64,000 nucleotides of DNA from Magnolia sinica (Eukaryota > Streptophyta > Magnoliopsida > Magnoliales > Magnoliaceae), in assembly GCF_029962835.1 (NCBI RefSeq), contig NC_080584.1:78644862-78708861 (forward strand). Direction: 5' to 3'. The stretch's first letter is position 1, and each line of letters starts with the position of its first letter. A program made the position numbers and the translations under genes. The notes beneath the pieces were generated by a model. That model ran no database searches. It was not told the DNA's origin and saw only the letters and a list, made by a program, of their open reading frames with translations. Positions 5,016-63,903 of the stretch are shown here, in pieces.

Positions 5016-5422
5016 TCCACCATGGTGGTATTTAGAGACCAGCAAATCTTGTCTGGTCTCAAGTATTTATTTCAAGGCACTCTTTTATCACTTGGTTAAT
5101 CTTTCTTGGTAAGTTTAAAATAAAAAAATAGATTGAAAATGTTGAATATCATATTGGCTGAAAATTGAACTTTTTAATGTGGGGCTATAATCTATTGAGC
5201 ATCTTTTTTCCAATGCCTGTTCCTTTTCTACCATTGGAGGAAAATCCAGCATAAATTTGATCTCACTCTGTGAACGATGCTGGGTTCTGGTGCCCATGCT
5301 TTTTTATTTTTATTTATTCTTACGTGTGGGTTAACTCAAGATTAGGGTATTTTTTACTTGGAGTTTCCACTAGTTAATTATCTGAGATTTGCTTAGTCGG
5401 CTAGAATTTATATAATTTTTAG

Positions 5423-25524: not shown

Positions 25525-26025
25525 TGACGCTGCGGCTAGCCTCGTGGCTAGTCGTTGGTGCTCCATAGGCCCACTGTGATTTATGTATTTTGTCCATACT
25601 GTCCATCCATTTTTAAAGATCATTTTAGAACTTAATTCCAAAAATGAGTAAGATCTCAATTTCATGTAGACCACACCAGTGGAAAACAGTAGCAATTGAA
25701 TGTTCACCATTTAAAACCTCCTAGGGTTGATTGTAGTGTTCATATGACATCCAACGTGTTGATTAGGTCATAAATACCTGGATGAATGGAAAATAAAAAT
25801 AAAAATCAACTTGATCGAAAACTTTGGTAGACTCGAAGAAGTTTTTAATGGTGGGAGTTCAATCAAGACTGTGGGGTCCACTTCAGATTTTGATTTACCT
25901 TATTTGTAGGTTCATACGATAAAATGATCTGAAAAATTGGTGGACAGCATGGATGAAACACATACATAACGGTGGGGCCCACAGAGCACTGACCGCTAGC
26001 CATTGGCTAGTGGCAGGCTCCCAAG
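25525..26025. mobile_element. CTAGCC-ended MITE abutting the kinase 3' end (copy A)
   Basis: Left end 'ggctagcctcgtggctagtc', right end 'ctagccattggctagtggca'; the arms are imperfect inverted repeats with GGGCCCAC words. Same position and family as 51403-51895 in copy B. Confidence 0.6.
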
Positions 26026-28422
26026 CTGATCCGTTTCCTTGGATCTTCCTGAGACGTGCTTTCCGACCGCGTATTCGTTGAAGCATCGCTCCACGCTTGA
26101 GACTTCGAAGACTCATTTTCTGTAAGAATCTGAAGTGATCTCGGCACGGGTGGCACGTTCACCTCTAAAACACCTTCCAACATTTGAATAATTTGCCCCA
26201 TCGACGGCCTGTCGTTCTCGTCGTCCTGAATGCACCAGCCTACAACTCTGCAAGCTCGACCGAGCTCTTCCATGTTCGCATTTCCCTCCAATCTGTAATC
26301 CAACAAGCAATGGATTTCACCTTTCATGATTTTGCCCACAGCCCAAATCGGAAAAAATACTGTTTCCCCAACTGCCAGCTGCTCGGTATTCCTCCTCCCT
26401 GATATGATCTCAAAACCATCATCCCATAGCCGTAGACATCGGCTTTCGGAGTGATTGCCAGGCCTGAAATCCATTCAGGTGCAAGATAGCCTCTTGTTCC
26501 TCTCATTGTTGTTAAAACCCGACTGAATCCCCCCCGGAAAAGCTTCGCAAGGCCAAAATCTGCCACCTTCGGACAGAACTCACCATCCAGAAGTATGTTT
26601 TCTGGCTTAATATCACAATGTATAATACAGGTTCAGCATTTCTCGTGAAGATAAGCTATTCCTCTTGCTGTCCCAATTGCTATCTTGTACCTCGTTGGCC
26701 AATCCAGGATGTCGGATTAATTCTTACCAAACAGATGAGAATCCAAAGACCCATTTGGCATGTTATCATAAACAAGCAGCCTTTTAGCCATTTTCGAGCA
26801 AAACCCACGAAAGCGGATGAGATTAATGTGCTGGATCATCCCGACCGTACTCACCTCTGTCCGAAAATCCTCCTCTCCTTGCTGAAGCCCTTCACCGTCG
26901 TTAGATCAGACAGGGTCCCTTTGAAAACAGAACCAAAACCTCCGCCACCCAATTTCTCTGAGAAATTCTTTGTTGCAATCTGCAGACTTTGGTAGCTAAA
27001 CCAGATCAAAAAGCCTTGAACTGCATCTGGATGCACTATATCCTGTCGCCGCTGGCGCCTCCAAATAAACAACAGAACAATACCCAATAGAAAAACACCC
27101 ACCGCAACTGCGACTACAACAGTCCGTGTAATTGCCCCCTTCCAACTGTCCGAAATCTTCAGTTCGGAGCTTGCAAGACGGACATGAAGAGTCATACCTT
27201 CAACATTTCCATCATGCAACTGCTGGAGATTCACCAATTCTCCATTCCATATCAAACAGCCGCTCTTGAATGCATAAGCAGTGCAAGAACAGTCATTCAA
27301 GCAAGCTAATTCGCAATCTCGGATGCTCCCTGCCAACGATCTCCATCCGTCAGTAAGATTCATTTCAGACAAAGCCGAAAACCCGTCTTTCTCACTGTCT
27401 ATCTCACCATCAAACGACTCAAACTTCCCACATACCAAATGGGTTTTCCTCATGCATCCGTCTGACCAACTCCCCAAATTCCAATCCTTCAGACACTTCA
27501 GCTCGAAGCCAGGCAAGCACGTACAGGACATGCTGTTCTCATTGCAGTTACCGAAGGTCCCGCAAAGATTATAAACCTGGCATTGAGATACCAGCAGCGA
27601 CCAGAACATATCCCATTCTTGGTAGTCTTTCCGCCATGAAAGATGCTTGATCTGGCCTGAAGGATCCATCACAACTCTTGAAAGGCTGGAAGCATTTTTC
27701 ACCGAGTAAGTGATGTACTCCTCCCGTTCACTTTCGTTGAAGCTGAAATCGTGTAAATAATTTGATTCCATTTGGGAGGATAATTGAAAATTCTGCCCAT
27801 TCAACTTGACATAATACTGAGTGATCCGGCCGGGGTCTATGGAGAGAGAGAATGGCCCAGGGGCCGGATCTTCGGAGTTCTTCCACGAAGTAAGACGTTG
27901 GCTTTCACCTGTAACCTTGTTCAATCCAAACCACCCTCCAGGCAGCAATGTATGGGTTGGGTGACCAAAGCTCTGCCAGTGCATGACAGACGGATCGGAC
28001 CAATCTCTTAGAACAAGATTTCCAGTGTCACGAAGGACTGCAACCGTTGAATTCAACGTCTTGGATGTTATATAGGTGGACCAGATTAGCAAATTTGAGG
28101 GGCTGAGGAGGACTAGATTGCCATCATCTGTGATTTTTAGGATTGAATTGAAGGGGTCTGAGAAGGGTGCTTCTCTGTTGGCTACCTAGACAACTGTTTG
28201 TTCTGGGAGTTGTTTGTACCAGATGCCTATGTAGTATTTTTGGGATTTGCCTGGTGTGAAGAAACCCAGTTCAAATGTCCCTCCTTGGGAGGTTAGGTTA
28301 TGGGGCCAACTAAGATGTTGAGTTGGGGTGATGGAATCTGAACCATAGGAGAGGTCGGCCTTGAGAGAGATGATCAAGAAGAGGAGGAAAGAGGGAGATG
28401 GCATGCTCCTTCTGGTATCCAT
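26010..28422 (-). pseudogene. G-type lectin S-receptor-like kinase, decayed paralogue
   Basis: Collinear with the intact gene at 51868-54312. It keeps the signal peptide (MDTRRSMPSPSFLLFLI), lectin, cysteine-rich and PAN regions, membrane segment and much of the kinase domain ([22 protein letters not shown]). A TAG at 28186-28188 replaces the Trp of VVWVANRE, early in the lectin domain. A 16-base deletion at about 26894 removes the VAVKK lysine region and shifts the frame. A 1-base loss near 26412 and other differences disturb the C-lobe. The HCDIKPEN region near 26600-26640 is also out of frame relative to its neighbours. It lost function after the duplication that produced copy B. A truncated secreted lectin product is ruled out by the early stop, unless translation starts downstream. 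Confidence 0.9.
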
Positions 28423-35577: not shown

Positions 35578-36576
35578 TGTAGTTCAAAGGTACCTCACAC
35601 CAGCTATATAGTTGTTGTATTGACGTCAGCAAGTTTTGTGGGTCTGATCTTGATGAGGTATGTGTTATATTCAAACCATCCATCCATTTGACGAGCTCAT
35701 CTTAAGGCTTGATACGAAAAATAAGATAGATTTAACAATCAAGTGGACCACACTGCAAAAGGCAGTGGGGGATTGAACGTCTACCAATGAAACCCTTTTT
35801 GGGGTCACAGAAGTTTTGGATCAATATGAAATTTGTTTTTCCTCTTAATTCAGGTCTTGGTGAACTTATGAACAAATTGGATGGAAAATTAATGTTATGG
35901 TGGGCCCTAGGAATTTTTTAACTGCAAAAATCATTATCTCCGCTGCTATTTGTGGTGTGGTCCAGATGAACTTTGGATATGATTCATTTTTTGGATAATA
36001 CTCTCTAAAAATAGATGAACGATGTAGATATAATAAATACCTCACTATGGGGCCCATGTAACTTTTATCTACTTTGAACCATTCGTACAACTCGGAGCTC
36101 GAGGAGCGTCAGTGCTCGTCTTCGCACGACACGTACCTACAGCAGCTATATAGCTGGTGTGAGGTACATTAGCTAGTCCGCTTCCTTTTATCATACTGAG
36201 TAAACTATGTAGGGTCCGCCTTGAATTTTTTTGGTTTATCCACACCATCAATCAGTTTTTCCAGATAATTTTAGGGGTTGATACTAAATTTTAAGTATAC
36301 CCAATGATCAAGTAGATCGCACCATATGAAACATTGGGAATAATGATTTCCACACCATTGAAAAAAAGAACCGATCTGAACCTTGCCCAATCCGATCTGA
36401 CTGGGTTTTCTTGATCGAGTCGGACTCGGATCAGTTCAGGCCAGCATGGGTTCGGATCGGTTCAAGTCAGATGACCCAGACTCAGTCCCGGATCGGATCG
36501 AGTTTGGGTAAGGCCCTACAGATTTCGGACCGAGTCAAGTTGAACTCCGATCTGACTCGGTCCAATGCCCAGCTCT
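35064..36576. mobile_element. hAT-like element with GATCGGGTCGG subterminal repeats
   Basis: The ends read TAGAGTTGGGCAT and, inverted, TAGAGCTGGGCAT. The 8-bp target duplication ATTCCACA lies at 35056-35063 and 36577-36584. Subterminal regions (35070-35245 and 36375-36570) are rich in 'gatccgacc/cggatcgg' repeats, as in many plant hAT MITEs. The interior holds two (GA)n runs (35306-35350, 35528-35574) and a nested MITE. No transposase. Confidence 0.75.
35590..36168. mobile_element. MITE with TIR GTACCTCACACCAGCTATAT, nested in the hAT-like element
   Basis: The left end GTACCTCACACCAGCTATAT and the right end ATATAGCTGGTGTGAGGTAC are perfect inverted repeats over 20 bases. Inside are the typical arms ('ccatccatttgacgagctc', 'aatagatgaacgatgtagat'). 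A related element is at 202-819. Confidence 0.75.
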
Positions 36577-36584
36577 ATTCCACA

Positions 36585-37080
36585 CCATGTGGTGCTGACT
36601 TTTCAAACCTCATAATAGTCAATGGATCCCTATGGGCCCACTATGAGGTCTGTGTCCATGTGACAGCTCATTTTTAGGGCATGCTGGCAAAAATGAAGTA
36701 GATTCAAATCTTAGGTGGACCATACCACAGGAAATAGTTATGATTGAATCCCCACCATTAAAAACATCATGGGGCCACTAAAATAGCTACTTCTCATCCA
36801 AACTACTAATAAAGTCACAAAGATCTGGATGAAGAGGCCACATAAACATCAACTTGATCCAAAACTTTTGTGCCTCATAAGAAGTTCATAGTGGTCGATC
36901 ACCACTGCATCCGTATTATGGTCCACCTGAGATTTGGATCTACTTCATTTTTGAGATAGTGCCCTAAAATGAGCTGTCAAAATGGATGGATGGTGTGCAT
37001 ATATACAAGGCACATAAATCACGGTAGTCACACGGTCAGGGATCCCACCTACCTCATGGGTTCCACCGAAGCCACACCCC
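36585..37080. mobile_element. MITE at the right end of copy A
   Basis: Arms 'gggcccactatgaggtctgt' and 'atcacggtagtcacacggtc' with 'ccctaaaatgagctgtcaaa' inside. The orthologue in copy B (63415-63960) has gained a ~70-base (TA)n run where copy A has only 'catatatac'. Confidence 0.6.
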
Positions 37081-37347: not shown

Positions 37348-37465
37348 GTATGTTGAGCTTAGAACTACATAGTAACATGTGCTGATCTTAACTGGTCCAA
37401 AAGATTTATTTCATAGTATTCTTTTAGTGCTTAGTTGACCTTTCTTGGTAGGCTTAAATGGATTA

Positions 37466-37474
37466 AATATTATA
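37466..37474. repeat. Left 9-bp target duplication of the foldback element
   Basis: AATATTATA; the right copy AATATTACA is at 40498-40506. The related unoccupied site is 'gaatatcatattgg' near 5142. Confidence 0.75.
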
Positions 37475-40400
37475 GGGGATTTATGCTAAGTACACCCTCC
37501 TTTTTGTGAGAGCATTGCAATAATATCGCTTCTCAAAACATTATTTTACTATACAATAGGACACTATTTGTCTTTTCTTTTTTTAATGAAATGCCCATAA
37601 TCACCTTTCTTTCTTTTTTCTTTTTTTATAATTTCTATGCACCTACTTTTTATTATTATTACTCTTTAGTAAATTTTCTGATGGAAACTTGCACATGGAA
37701 AGAATGGGTTCTTCTTTTTACCTATTATGTTGAACAAGGTTTACTAGGAAAGAACATGAGAGAATTAAATGAAAAAAATTATAAATATTTTTCTTTTAAA
37801 CAATGGGTCCTTATTCTTTTTATAAAGATTATATTCGGATGAGTTTTCTTGGGAAGAAAATTATATAAAGAGAGGAGAGATAAAAATAATAATAATAATA
37901 ATAATAATAAACCCTCTACTTTTAGATTATATGTTTTTCTTTATTCAAAAGATTATGTTTTGATTAGCCTTTTACCAAGAGCTACACTTTGAGCCAATTT
38001 TTAAAAGGTTAAATGGTATTTAAATGAGATGATTATAAAGTCATTTAAAAGTTTGCCGAATTATCTTTCCAATGAGCTTAAGATTAATTTGATTTAACCT
38101 GTAATAAAAAAGTTATAAGAGTTATGCTGGGACCACGTGATACATTGCTCAAACTATAATTAATAACTTTTGAAAGGTCAAATGGCCTTCGAATGAGATA
38201 ATTTCAAAATCATTTGAAAGATAATCGAATTATCTTTTCAATGAGCATAAAATCATCCTGATCTAACCTGTAATGAGTGAGTTGTGATCGTTTTCGTCTG
38301 ACAGCATGATCCTCGGTCTAAACCGCGATTTGGGCATTACTCAAATCATGATAAAGAATTTCGAGCCACTTTTGAAAGATCAAACATTTTTAAATTATTT
38401 GATTCCAAAGTCTTTTGAAAGTTCATTGAATTATCTTTCCGATGAGCATAAAATCATCCAATCCAATAGGTAGGTATGACCGCTTTCATGAGATTGTGTA
38501 ATTCATTGTTCAAACTGCAATCACTATTTTGTCCAAATTGCGATAAGGACTTTGGACCCACTTTTGACAGGTCAAATAATTTCTAAATGAGCTACTTCCA
38601 AAGCCATTTGAAGGTTAGTTAAATTATGTTTCCAATGAGCACAAGATCACCCCAAGCAAATCTGTGACAAAGGAGTTATAATCGTTTTCGCGATTATTAT
38701 TTTGTCCAAATTGTAATGTGAACTTTGGACCCACTTCTGATAGGTCAAACAATCTCCAAATGATCTGATGCTAAATCCATTCATAGGTTCAACGAATTAT
38801 CGTTTCAACGAGCACAAGATCAACCAATCCAACTTGTGATGAGGGAGTTATGACAGTGTTCAAAAGACCCTGCGATGCTAGAAAAACAATGACCATGATT
38901 TGGAGATCATTATTCGCCATGGTTTAGATTTGAACAATCACGATATGAATTATAAATCTTTATCGTGGAAACCAAATCATGATTGTAAAGAATCAAGATC
39001 GCCCAAATTACAATCATGAAAAATCACGATTGTTGTTTTTCCAGCAAGCCGTGGTCCCACAAAAATGATCATAAGTCCCTCATTACAGATCAAATCGGGG
39101 AGATCTTATATTCGTTGGAAAGATAATTCAATGAAATTTTAAATGATTTTAGAATTATCTCATTTAAAGACTATTTGACCTTTCAAAAGTGGGCCTAAGT
39201 CCAAATTGCAATTTGAACAAAACAACAATCACAGTTTGCATAATGCATTGCACAATCATACGAAAATGGTTGTAACTCCCCCATTATATGTCAAAATGTG
39301 GTGATCTTATGCTCATTGGAAAGACAATTTGATAAAATTTTAAATGACTTTAGAATCAATTTATACCGTTTGAACTTTCAAGAGTGGACTCAACGTCCAA
39401 ACTATAATTTAGACAAGGCCATAACTTCCTTATTATATGTTGGATTGGGGTGATCTTGTGCTCATTGGAAAGATCATATGATGAGCTTTGAAATGGTTAT
39501 GGAATCAACTCATTTAGAGACCATTTTACATTCAAAAAATAAGCCCAAAATTTAGATTATGCTTTGGACAATGCCTATATCGTGATTAGAATATGCATCA
39601 TGAAATCCCACTGAAAAGGTCATAACTCACTCATTACAGATTGGATCGAGGTAATCTTGTGCCTGTTGGAAGGAAACTTTGATGATGATTTAAATTATTT
39701 TGGAATCATTTCATTTAAAGACCATTTGCCCTTTTAAAAGTGGGCCCAAACAGCAATAGTATTTTGAACAATGCATCATGCGGTCCTCCTAAAATGTGCA
39801 TAATTTTCTCATTACAGGTCGAATCGAGGCAATCTTAAGCTTGTTGGAAACATAATTCAATAAGCTATTGAATGACTATGGAATCATCTCATTGAACATC
39901 ATTTTACCTTTCAAAACTTGGCTCAAATTCTAGTTCTTGGAAAAAGATAAATCTAAATCTATTTTTTTGAAGAGAAAAAAAGAAGTTATCTTCTAAAAGT
40001 GGAGTTTTTAATATTTTATCTTTATATCAATTTCTTCTCAAGTAGACTAATTTGATTATAATCTTTATAGAAAGAAGAAGAACCCATCTTTTAAAAGCAA
40101 AATTTTCTGTTTTCTTTCCTTCTATTTATTTCTTTACAAAAGGCACATCTAAGCAAAATCTTTTAAAAAAGAAGAAGAACACATCTTTTAAAAGTAGAAT
40201 ATTTATAATTTTTCATCTAATTTTCTCTCTTTCTTCCCAAAAAGCTTAGTGCTACTTAATAGGTAAAAAGCATAATAACCCATTTTTCTCTCATGGGAGT
40301 TTCTACCAAAGAACTTACCAGAGGGTAATGATAATAAAAAAAGGTATGATTGCATAAAAAAATTAAAAAGGTGATTACTGGCATCTTCATTTGAGAAAAA

Positions 40401-40497
40401 AGACAAACAATATCCAAATGTGTAGAAAAATAATGTTTTGAAAAGCAATGTTATAGTGGCCCTCCCACAAAACAGTGTGCCCATGGGGTAAAAACTC
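37475..40497. mobile_element. 3.0-kb giant foldback (Mutator-type) element with satellite-like arms
   Basis: The two halves are reverse complements along almost the whole length: 37490-37860 pairs with 40110-40490, and 37980-38925 pairs with 39010-39930, leaving a loop under 100 bases. Each inner arm is a tandem series of four to five diverged ~190-bp units with 'gacccacttttgaaaggtca', 'gaattatctttccaatgagc' and 'gagttataa'. Nine-base target duplications differ at one position. There is no coding capacity. Nine-base duplications point to the Mutator superfamily; the long inverted ends fit a foldback. Confidence 0.8.
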
Positions 40498-40759
40498 AAT
40501 ATTACATCAGATGAAAATTATACTATTTATAATGTCAAGTTAGAATTTATAAAGCATCTTTTTTTCCAATGCTCTTTCCTTCTCTAACTTTAATGGAAAT
40601 CTATGATAAATATTATCTTACTCTATTGTTAGGATCCTCCATAACCCGAAGTGTGCAAATCTTTATTAATATTATTAGAAATAAGCACGTCGGTAACGTT
40701 ACGATCAAACTTTACTTTCAGCAGCATCATGAGCAAACTTCAACTTTGTGAGTTTTTTA

Positions 40760-51402: not shown

Positions 51403-51895
51403 TAGCCTGCTGGCTAGTGGTTGGTGTTCTGCAGGCCCACTGTGATTTATGTATTCTATCCACACTGTCCATCCATTTTTAAAGATCATTTTAGAGTTTT
51501 ATCCCAAAAATGAGTCAGATATGAACTTCATGTGGACCACACCAGTGGAAAACAGTAGCAATTGAATGTCCACCATTTAAAACCTCCTAGGGTTGATTGT
51601 AGTGTTTATATGACATCCAACCGTTGATTAAGTCATAAAGACCTGGAGGAAAGGAAAAAAAGAAAAGAAAAAAAAAATCAACTTGATCCAAAACTTTTGT
51701 AGCAACGAAGAAGTTTTTAATGGTGGGAGTTCAATCAACACTGTGTGATCCAGTTCAGATTTTGATCTACCTTACTTTTAGGTTCATGCGATAAAATGAT
51801 CTGAAAATATTGGTGGACGGCATGGATGAAACACATACATAAGGGTGGGGCCCACAGAGCACTGACACTAGCCATTGGCTAGTGGCTGGCTCCCT
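51403..51895. mobile_element. CTAGCC-ended MITE supplying the kinase stop codon
   Basis: Left end 'actagcctgctggctagtgg', right end 'ctagccattggctagtggct' then 'ggctccctag'. The right terminal ~28 bases overlap the last codons of the kinase gene on the minus strand. Confidence 0.65.
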
Positions 51896-54312
51896 AGCTG
51901 ATCCGTTTCCTTGTATCTTCCTGACGACATGCTTTCGGACCGCGTATTCGTTGAAGCAATGCTCCACGCTTGAGACGACGAAGACTCATTTTCTGTAAGA
52001 ATCTGAAGTGATCTCGGCACGGGTGGCACGTTCACCTCTAAAACACCCTCCAACATTTGAATAATCTGCCCCATCGACGGCCTGTCGCTCTCGTTGTCCT
52101 GAATGCACCAGCCTGCGACTCTGCAGGCTCGACTGAGCTCTTCCATATTCGCATTTCCCTCCAATCTGTAATCCAACAAGCAATGGATTTCACCTTTCAT
52201 GATTTTACCCACAGCCCAAATCGGGAAAAACACTGTTTCCCCAACTGCCAGCTGCTCGGTATTCCTCCTCCCTGATATGATCTCAAAAACCATCATCCCA
52301 TAGCTGTAGACATCGGCTTTCGGTGTGATTGCCAGACCTGAAATCCATTCAGGTGCAAGATAGCCTCTTGTTCCTCTCATCGTTGTTAAAACCCGACTGA
52401 ATTCCCGCCCGAAAAGCTTCGCAAGGCCAAAATCTGCCACCTTCGGACAGAACTCACAATCCAGAAGTATGTTTTCTGGCTTAATATCACAATGTATAAT
52501 ACAGTTTCGGCATTTCTCGTGAAGATAAGCTATTCCTCTTGCCGTCCCAATTGCTATCTTGTACCTCGTTGGCCAATCGAGGACGTTGGAATTCTTACCA
52601 AACAGATGAGAATCCAAAGACCCATTCGGCATGTAATCATATACGAGCAGCCTTTTAGCCATTTTCGAGCAAAACCCACGAAGGCGGATGAGATTAACGT
52701 GCTGGATCATTCCGACCGTACTCACCTCTGTCCGGAACTCCTTCTCTCCTTGTTGAAGCCCTTCAAGCTTCTTCACTGCCACCGTCGTTAGATCAGACAG
52801 AGTCCCTTTGAAAACAGAACCGAAACCTCCGCCGCCCAATTTCTCTGAGAAATTCTTTGTTGCAATCTGTAGACTTTGGTAACTAAACCAGATCAAAGAG
52901 CCTTGAACTGCATCTGGATGTACTATATCCTGTTGCCGCTGGCGCCTCCATATAAACAACAGAACAATACCCAATAGAAAAACAGCCACCGCAACTGCGA
53001 CTACAACAGTCCGTGTAATTGCCCCCTTCCGACTGTTTGAAATCTTCAGTTCGGAGCTTGCAAGACGGACATGAAGAGTCATACCTTCAACATTTCCAGC
53101 AGGTAACTGCTGGAGATTCACCAAATCTCCATTCCATATCAAACACCCGCTCTTGAATGCATAAGCAGTGCAAGAACAGTCATTCAAGCAAGCTAATTCG
53201 CAATCTTGGATGCTCCCAGCTGCCAACGATCTCCTTCCGTCAGTAAGATTCATGTCAGACAAAGCCCAAAACCCATCTTTCTCACTGTCTTTCCCACCAT
53301 CAAACGACTCAAACTTCCCACATCCCAAATTGGTTTTCCGCATGCATCCGTCGGACCAACTCCCCAAATTCCAATCCTTCAGACACTTCGGCTCGAAGCC
53401 AGGCAAGCACGTACAGGACATGCTGTTCTCATTGCAGCTACCGAAGGTCCCACAAAGATTATAAACCCGGCATTGAGATACCGGCAGCGACCAGAACATA
53501 TCCCATTCTTGGTAGTCTTTCCGCCATGAAAGATGCTTGATCTGTCCTGTAAGATTCAACACGACTCTTGAAAGGGTGGAAGCATTTTTCACCGAGTAAG
53601 TGATGTACTCCTCCCGTTCGCTTTCGTTGAAGCTGAAATCGTGTAAATAATTTGATTCCATTTGGGAGGATAATTGCAATTTCTCCCCATTCAACTTGAC
53701 ATAATACTGAGTGATCCGGCCGGGGTCTATGGAGAGAGAGAATGGTCCAGGGGCTGGATCTTCAGAGTTCTTCCACGAAGTAAGACGTTGGCTTTCACCT
53801 GTAACCTTGTTCAATCCAAACCACCCTCCAGGCAGCAATGTATGGGTTGGGTGACCAAAGCTCTGCCAGTGCACGACAGACGGATCGGACCAATCTCTTA
53901 GAACAAGATTTCCAGTGTCTAGAAGGACTGCAACCGTTGAATTCAACGTCTTGGATGTTATATAGGTGGACCAGATTAGCAAATTTGAGGGGCTGAGGAG
54001 GATTAGATTGCCGTCTTCTGTGATTTTTAGGATTGAATTGAAGGGGTCTGAGACGGGTGCTTCTCTGTTGGCTACCCAGACAACTGTTTGTTCTGGGAGT
54101 TGTTTGTACCAGATGCCTATGTAGTATTTTTGGGATTTGCCTGGTGTGAAGAAACCGAGTTCAAATGTCCCACCTTGGGAGGTTAAGTTATGGGGCCAAC
54201 TAAGATGTTGAGTTGAGGTGATGGAATCTGAACCATAGGAGAGGTCGGCCTTGAGAGAGAAGATCAAGAAGAGGAGGAAAGAGAGAAATGGCATGCTTCT
54301 TCTGTTATCCAT
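51868..54312 (-). CDS. G-type lectin S-receptor-like serine/threonine protein kinase (At2g19130 type)
   Basis: An intronless 814-codon frame, the usual length for this family. Order: signal peptide (MDNRRSMPFLSFLLFLIFSL), bulb-type lectin domain to about residue 150 (VVWVANRE, WQSFGHPTHTLLPG), S-locus glycoprotein region, EGF-like cysteines (CGTFGSCNENSMSCTCLPGF, from about 287), PAN/apple domain (about 331-415), membrane helix about 435-455, then a kinase with GGGGFGSVF (about 493-501), catalytic Lys 514, HCDIKPEN (607-614), DFG 627-629 and APE 653-655. Cys replaces Arg in HRD, so it is a non-RD kinase, a class common among immune receptors. I chose ATG 54312: purine at -3, G at +4, and a positive n-region; an upstream in-frame ATG at 54345 has a poor context. 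The last nine codons (LGSQPLANG and stop) come from a MITE end. All key residues are present, so it is probably functional at the plasma membrane; its ligand is unknown. Confidence 0.93.
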   Translation of the reverse strand: MDNRRSMPFLSFLLFLIFSLKADLSYGSDSITSTQHLSWPHNLTSQGGTFELGFFTPGKSQKYYIGIWYKQLPEQTVVWVANREAPVSDPFNSILKITEDGNLILLSPSNLLIWSTYITSKTLNSTVAVLLDTGNLVLRDWSDPSVVHWQSFGHPTHTLLPGGWFGLNKVTGESQRLTSWKNSEDPAPGPFSLSIDPGRITQYYVKLNGEKLQLSSQMESNYLHDFSFNESEREEYITYSVKNASTLSRVVLNLTGQIKHLSWRKDYQEWDMFWSLPVSQCRVYNLCGTFGSCNENSMSCTCLPGFEPKCLKDWNLGSWSDGCMRKTNLGCGKFESFDGGKDSEKDGFWALSDMNLTDGRRSLAAGSIQDCELACLNDCSCTAYAFKSGCLIWNGDLVNLQQLPAGNVEGMTLHVRLASSELKISNSRKGAITRTVVVAVAVAVFLLGIVLLFIWRRQRQQDIVHPDAVQGSLIWFSYQSLQIATKNFSEKLGGGGFGSVFKGTLSDLTTVAVKKLEGLQQGEKEFRTEVSTVGMIQHVNLIRLRGFCSKMAKRLLVYDYMPNGSLDSHLFGKNSNVLDWPTRYKIAIGTARGIAYLHEKCRNCIIHCDIKPENILLDCEFCPKVADFGLAKLFGREFSRVLTTMRGTRGYLAPEWISGLAITPKADVYSYGMMVFEIISGRRNTEQLAVGETVFFPIWAVGKIMKGEIHCLLDYRLEGNANMEELSRACRVAGWCIQDNESDRPSMGQIIQMLEGVLEVNVPPVPRSLQILTENESSSSQAWSIASTNTRSESMSSGRYKETDQLGSQPLANG

Positions 54313-54379
54313 GCCTACTGAAACATCCGAGGACATGTAAGACATACAATGCCCTAAATATTAAAAGGATTAAACAAAT

Positions 54380-62274: not shown

Positions 62275-63408
62275 TCACTGAAACACCCGACCGCACCCAA
62301 CCCTAGCAAGCTGTCCCTTTCCCTTTCTTCTCTTTCTCTACCTGCCGCATGCCCGCTCGGCGTCCGACCAGAAGAAATCCACCGGACCACCACTACCGAC
62401 GCACGACTAGCACACTGCCTACCTGATCGATCTCGCCGAGCAAAGAAGACCGCACGGTCGTGCGCCCAATCCCGACTCGGTTAGCACTTACCTGTCTCCT
62501 GACACATCCATGCCTTTATTTTAAGAAATTACTCTTTGCTTCTTTTTTTTTTTTTTGGGTTTTCCCATCTCATCGTTTCCAAATCATCCTCTTTTTTACC
62601 TTTTTTCTAAATCATCTGATGCAACCATGATTCGGATTTGGACACGGTTGAGCAATTAGAGATGGATTAGGAGGATGAACGGTTGCTCTTGTTACAACAC
62701 TAGGTCCCTGTAACAAGGAGATGGAAATGCAATAAGGATTTTGAGAAAAAATGAAATTCGGTTTTCATTGAAAGTTAGACTTGAGAAATTATACAGTTGG
62801 ATCGTTGGTTTTTTAAAGTGGGTCCCATGGTTTGACGGTCCATATTATTTTTATCTGGTCTGGTGGTGGATGGGCCACAATATAAGAATCTCCTTGGGAG
62901 AATCCTACCATTACTGGCTGTAGATAGTTTACAAAGGGTGAAAAGATCACATGCGTGCGTTTGAGCTGTGGACCACATTCATGATGTGTATGTAGAATCT
63001 AAACCGTTCAACAGGTGAGATTCTTCATGGGGCACCATATATGCTAAGAATCATCTCCATCAAAATCTTGGGTGGGCCACACCAAAGGAAGCAGTGTAGA
63101 ATCATACCAACATCCTACATGTTCACTTGTTGTGGCTAAGTTCTAGTGGGTCCCTTGATCCTTGTGGGGCATACCTGATGACTGAGTTGGATGACATATA
63201 CACAACCATGATCGATCTACCCTTTACATATGAAAAAGCTCGAGCTCGACTCGACTCGAACCACTAGCTTGACTCGAACTCGACTCGACAACTTTGGCAA
63301 ATAAGCCAAGCTTCAATGTTGAGCTAGAGCTCGAACTCAAGTATAGCATGGACAAATCGAGCTGAGCTTGGCCCACCTCGACTCGACTCGGCTCGATGCC
63401 CACCCCTA
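62040..63408. mobile_element. hAT-like element with CGAGCTCGACTCGACTCG subterminal repeats
   Basis: Ends TAGGGCTGTTCATGAGTCGAG and, inverted, TAGGGGTGGGCATCGAGCCGAG. 8-bp flanks TTTCCACA (62032-62039) and ATTCCACA (63409-63416). Subterminal regions (62050-62215 and 63235-63400) are saturated with 'gagtcgagctc'-type repeats known from plant hAT MITEs. The interior has a (TA)n run (62219-62272) and MITE halves (62810-63220). No transposase. It occupies the same target octamer as the unrelated hAT-like element of copy A. Confidence 0.72.
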
Positions 63409-63414
63409 ATTCCA

Positions 63415-63824
63415 CACCATGTGGTGGTGACCTTTCAAACCTCGGAATAGTCAATGGATCCCTGTGGGCCCACTGTGAGGTCTGTGTCCATGTGACAACT
63501 CATTTTTAGGGCATGATGGCAAAAATGAAGTAGATCCAAATCTTAGGTAGACCATACCACAGGAAATGGTTATGATTGAATCCCCACCATTAAATACATC
63601 ATGGGGCCACTAAAATAGCTACTTCTCATCCAAACTACTAATAAAGTCACAAAGATCTGGATGAAGAGGCCACACAAACATCAACTTGATCCAAAACTTT
63701 TGTGCCCCATAAGAAGTTCTTACTGGTCGATCATCACTGCATCCATATTATGGTCCACCTGAGATTTGGATCTACTTCATTTTTAAGATAGTGCCCTAAA
63801 ATGAGCTGTCAAAATGGATGGATG

Positions 63825-63903
<79 letters not shown>

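Follow-up and report, generated by a model that had tools for sequence, protein, structure and literature searches.

Foldback elements with tandem repeats in the arms

The closest described systems are summarized first. The arms of Tetris, a foldback of Drosophila virilis, consist of a flanking outer domain, a variable tandem array with ~220-bp repeats, and an inner domain; the element is non-coding and flanked by 8-10-bp duplications, no transposase-coding copy was found by its authors, and its assignment to Mutator relies on duplication size and earlier suggestions (PMC4079207). Tm1, a Mutator/foldback element of root-knot nematodes, has duplications of 8-10 bp, mostly 9, in 45 of 53 complete elements (PMC3169594).

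A stretch of 64,000 nucleotides of Magnolia sinica DNA, called the window throughout, hosts an element whose design is best read as closest to these two. The likeness to Tetris, drawn from its description, lies in the same arm build, the lack of coding capacity and the duplications. In contrast, Tetris units are 87-94% alike, those of Magnolia 59-75%; the host here is a plant; and Tetris expands to long free arrays, none of which was seen in the few Magnolia arrays examined (PMC4079207). Tm1 shares composite arms and tandem repeats in variable, unequal numbers, and differs in having ~14-bp repeats, arms 93% identical on average and a known transposase-coding copy (PMC3169594). Arabidopsis FARE foldbacks are alike in plant host and long palindromic ends, and are reportedly classed as MULEs (cited in PMC4486113). 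Galileo carries ~210-bp tandem repeats, unequal between arms, in one subfamily, and solo-arm copies are common (64/170), but it makes 7-bp duplications and belongs to the P superfamily (PMC3573991).

Structure of the element

The inverted repeat spans 37475-40497, both ends being well placed. Each arm begins with an outer domain of ~0.5 kb, continues with five diverged tandem units and includes half of the 158-bp central spacer (38882-39039). Long inverted arms account for most of the element in the window copy as in the two-ended relatives examined. The left outer domain (37475-38000, plus strand), supported by outer-domain alignment and tree, begins with the terminus GGGGATTTATG; the terminus of the right one (39915-40497, minus strand) reads inwards GAGTTTTTACCCC. 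Matches to the terminus model are at 37475-37573 (E 6.8e-22) and 40401-40496 (E 2.3e-23), each end being itself a seed of the model.

A single gapped BLAST piece spans 37768-40121 at 64% identity, and an outer piece at 72% pairs 37502-37885 with 40103-40472. Between the arms, 1049 positions match, 282 differ and 361 columns are gaps; arm identity is ~79% (78-79%) ungapped and 62-64% counting gaps. Since shuffled controls reach ungapped identities of 76-81% by opening gaps, the alignment score is the meaningful figure for the arms. Aligned globally, the arms score +612, and the controls (five shuffles, the reversed arm and a same-strand control) -281 to -391. The continuous anti-diagonal expected from the original prediction is thus present, both in the BLAST pieces and in a score above all controls. 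The palindrome had also been called near-perfect, a term which does not suit arms 62-64% identical with gaps and sharing exact runs of 16 bp at most.

The left array (38001-38881, plus strand), recognized by the unit model and pairwise identities, comprises units at 38001-38152, 38170-38320, 38372-38513, 38564-38693 and 38737-38881; the right array (39040-39914, minus strand; unit model) comprises units at 39040-39186, 39237-39381, 39388-39533, 39591-39737 and 39764-39914. Unit starts are spaced 169-202 bp on the left and 151-203 bp on the right. The unit model, built from these same ten units, matches all of them at E 6e-30 or better. Five tandem units per arm agree with the earlier description of the arms as satellite arrays, but "satellite" is too strong a word for units 59-75% identical in pairwise comparison and lacking an entry in the Tandem Repeats Finder listing. 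Pairing of units in the same order between arms is weak (rank 13 of 120 permutations). A self-palindromic unit was considered and rejected, the consensus scoring 19 and its shuffles 19.4 on average; L2 and R5, two of the ten single units, score above most shuffles. Opposite-strand arm coverage was judged an artefact of halving elements with unequal arms.

A dispersed family

Searches were carried out on the 1.84-Gb assembly (127 contigs), where the window occupies G000:C12:78644862-78708861. The first 301 bases of the element gave 27 matches, and the terminus consensus at least 41 on 13 contigs (40 of 67 candidates scored). Dispersed relatives carry the same terminus as the window copy, and the ends of other genomic copies coincide with 37475/40497. 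The 29 loci examined are the window copy, its tandem duplicate, L009-L025 and L028 (all places from the 301-base search except C1:5651599), and nine places, L053-L061, picked from the unit-consensus and terminus-consensus searches. Both termini are found in 11 (window copy, duplicate, L009-L013, L018, L020, L028, L060). L053 and L054 have two arms and one damaged end, and 16 loci are incomplete (L014-L017, L019, L021-L025, L055-L059, L061), L022 and L056 among them retaining parts of both arms. At L017:620-815 a pair of family termini stand directly against each other, with arms pointing apart, as either adjacent insertions or a junction product would leave them.

The number of units, left/right, is 5/5 in the window copy, 5/6 in L009, 4/7 in L010, 3/3 in L011, 7/4 in L012, 5/5 in L013, 4/1 in L018, 8/7 in L020 and 7/6 in L028, and is unequal in six of these nine two-ended copies (weak matches on the opposite strand, one in the window copy and one in L009, being left out). 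The unit consensus has at least 170 genome matches (40 of 1645 candidate places scored); of four same-orientation arrays fetched from the scored places, three reside within two-armed elements and one within a solo arm, the largest having nine units, one of them partial.

Target-site duplications and empty site

The 9-mers flanking the window element, AATATTATA at 37466-37474 and AATATTACA at 40498-40506, agree at 8/9 positions, bearing out the direct repeats first noticed there. The 9-bp duplication is a group statistic over nine two-ended copies; the tandem duplicate of the window copy was left out because it stems from the same insertion. When the ends may shift by one base at most, the best 9-mer match is 9 in L009 (an exact duplication), 8 in the window copy and L020, 7 in L011, L012 and L013, and 6, hence ambiguous, in L010; no clear duplication is seen in L018 (3/9) and L028 (4/9), nor in the later-found L060 (at most 6/9 over offsets up to about four bases). 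Own flanks match on average at 6.56/9 positions vs. 4.31/9 for swapped flanks (2/20,000 permutations), and at 5.22 vs. 3.19 with ends fixed (29/20,000). The match per base over lengths 7 to 12 is 0.67, 0.71, 0.73, 0.67, 0.59 and 0.47, with a peak at 9, lengths 8 and 9 being weakly separated (0.71 vs. 0.73).

A paralogous flank near 5145 is devoid of the element. Flank matches cover 5065-5119 and 5145-5243, and a similar 9-mer, AATATCATA, occurs there once (5145-5153, plus strand, by eye), marking a probable empty site. On the right the match starts at 40498; on the left it stops at 37458, leaving 16 bp before the element, and gaps are needed to align the joint. The site is therefore supportive, not exact. 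As to the unfilled related site proposed near 5142, the single 9-mer holds.

Divergence and history

Over the outer 560 bases, the two arms of one element have a mean identity of 0.737, vs. 0.703-0.725 between elements. In the outer-domain tree, which is star-like, inner branches are short and support is uneven. The two arms of an element pair as sisters in the window copy (0.79), L020 (0.84) and L028 (0.19); those of L011 share one clade with L014 (0.97), and those of L009, L010, L012, L013 and L018 are not sisters. The duplications are 73% identical at the best offsets and 58% when the ends are held, the arms 73.7%. These figures roughly fit arms near-equal at insertion, followed by drift of arms and duplications to a similar degree; the comparison is loose, because the choice of offsets raises the duplication figure, which is drawn from few bases. 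The similar decay argues weakly against selection for pairing. Comparing arm and duplication decay is a simple test for selection on a genomic hairpin, which here is rough and points to drift.

The window also holds a tandem segmental duplication of ~27 kb (36554-37005 and 63385-63837). A second copy of the element (L026/L027, G000:C12:78709266-78726411), split by ~16 kb, resides in it. The outer domains of this duplicate, ~27 kb away, are 94-96% identical to those of the window copy, hence the insertion is older than the segmental duplication.

Solo arms

Five of the 16 incomplete loci (L014, L016, L023, L025 and L055) end near the palindrome centre, 13-93 bp past the last unit and within the central spacer, which makes up 4.3% of the element length (mean of ten two-ended copies). 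L014, L016, L023 and L025 have one arm, with no partner arm within 10-11 kb downstream; L055 is likewise one-armed over the ~2.5 kb examined beyond. Downstream sequences of the first four are unrelated, save scattered repeats common to L014 and L016. By eye, L014 seems to retain ~100 bp of the second arm beyond the centre; L025 has lost its outer end as well. Binomial probabilities for stops at the centre, calculated post hoc, come to 0.0004 for the mean spacer fraction and 0.006 for the largest one, and to 0.003 and 0.026 without L055 (4/15); being post hoc, the excess is suggestive only. Arms might have been lost singly by cleavage at the palindrome centre, extruded as a hairpin or cruciform, leaving solo arms behind, a tentative and rather unlikely reading; if true, breakage at palindrome centres would be preserved in the genome as a fossil record. 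At the solo-arm loci the second arm may lie farther off, as in the duplicate copy, where the arms are ~16 kb apart.

Coding content and transposase source

The element has no frame longer than 110 aa (frames of 110 and 97 aa are present). At least 150 PF10551 (MULE) domains were detected in the genome (150 of 1104 candidates scored). None of these 150 lies less than 260 kb from any of the 41 termini listed, and thus no autonomous partner is linked to them; no transposase source was found among the 150 of 1104 domain candidates and the 40 of 67 terminus candidates scored.

Two loci were considered as autonomous partners. The duplicate (L026/L027) was rejected: its ~16-kb middle is, as read from its sequence, LTR-retrotransposon-like, with direct repeats (~2.2 and ~1.75 kb, 87-89% identical) and polyprotein-like frames. 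L057 is an unlikely partner: a truncated arm is followed there by a small inverted repeat, and no second terminus is found within 9.2 kb. A plant-mobile-domain frame (PF10536, E 1.4e-9) is present at L057:4205-4633, 4 kb inside the family terminus, and is probably a coincidence; the domain is presumably of Ty3/gypsy origin (PMC8616336).

Elsewhere in the window, an open frame of 830 aa is found at 51868-54360 (minus strand), and a related copy, broken into separate frames, at 26007-28185 (minus strand). The 830-aa frame resembles a lectin-type receptor kinase.

Origin of the element

The element is very probably a fossil non-autonomous foldback DNA transposon of the Mutator type. Its structure, the common ends, the dispersed family, the group-wise duplication and the unequal unit numbers are matters of observation. 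The original prediction, a non-autonomous foldback that makes 9-bp duplications as Mutator elements do, is supported by the nine-copy test and the common terminus; the paralogous empty site supports it with less precision. A foldback from a different superfamily of DNA transposons, for instance one with 8-bp duplications, is improbable: Galileo, of the P-element superfamily, also has foldback-like arms with tandem units (PMC3573991), and duplication lengths 8 and 9 differ little, but the best fit is at 9, the L009 copy has an exact 9-mer, and the window copy and L020 agree at 8/9. The odds are negligible that chance or a local inverted segmental duplication produced the structure with no transposon involved. 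A tandem segmental duplication is indeed found in the window; both readings are nevertheless refuted by dispersed copies having a common terminus on 13 contigs, and group-wise 9-bp duplications and the probable empty site speak against them as well.

Sequence analysis bears likewise on the view that the palindrome is a maintained hairpin locus, which would be transcribed into long double-stranded RNA, yield 21-24-nt siRNAs and have a role preserving arm pairing. The predicted fold of the 3-kb RNA exceeds all controls (MFE -1049; four shuffled sequences reach -589 to -634, a version with a single shuffled arm -632 and the neighbouring 3 kb -555), and decayed hairpins can still be processed. A strong fold is, however, what a palindrome gives passively. 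The extended near-perfect duplex of a hairpin siRNA locus is absent, the longest exact run being 16 bp; all 1598 21-column stretches contain differences, 2, 35 and 123 of them at most one, two and three, respectively. The arms have diverged about as far, by a rough estimate, as the target-site duplications, unit counts differ between arms in six of nine copies, and the window has no frame of at least 130 aa between 28186 and 47890. Nothing pointing to maintained pairing emerged from the sequence analysis, and a maintained hairpin locus is very improbable, slightly more so than a foldback of another superfamily. A ~1.4-kb double-stranded RNA feeding small RNAs is accordingly not supported as a function; the RNA would fold, as a duplex interrupted throughout.

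As a Mutator-type foldback, the element would have inserted by cut-and-paste, with the transposase supplied in trans from elsewhere. The enzyme would have bound the common terminus and, judging from the duplication length, cut the target with a 9-bp stagger. At the time of insertion the two arms probably differed very little, arms and duplications having since drifted roughly alike, and tandem units would expand and contract independently in each arm. By analogy with Galileo (PMC3573991), the units may have acted as additional binding sites for the transposase.

The family is ordinary in kind, a new and ancient member of the Mutator-type foldbacks with a build known from other organisms. No paper joining Magnolia with Mutator and foldback was found in the open-access literature, and the family, judged from that literature, may be undescribed. 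A Tetris-like design, with tandem units within foldback arms and 9-bp duplications, is present in Magnolia, and once spread across its chromosomes.
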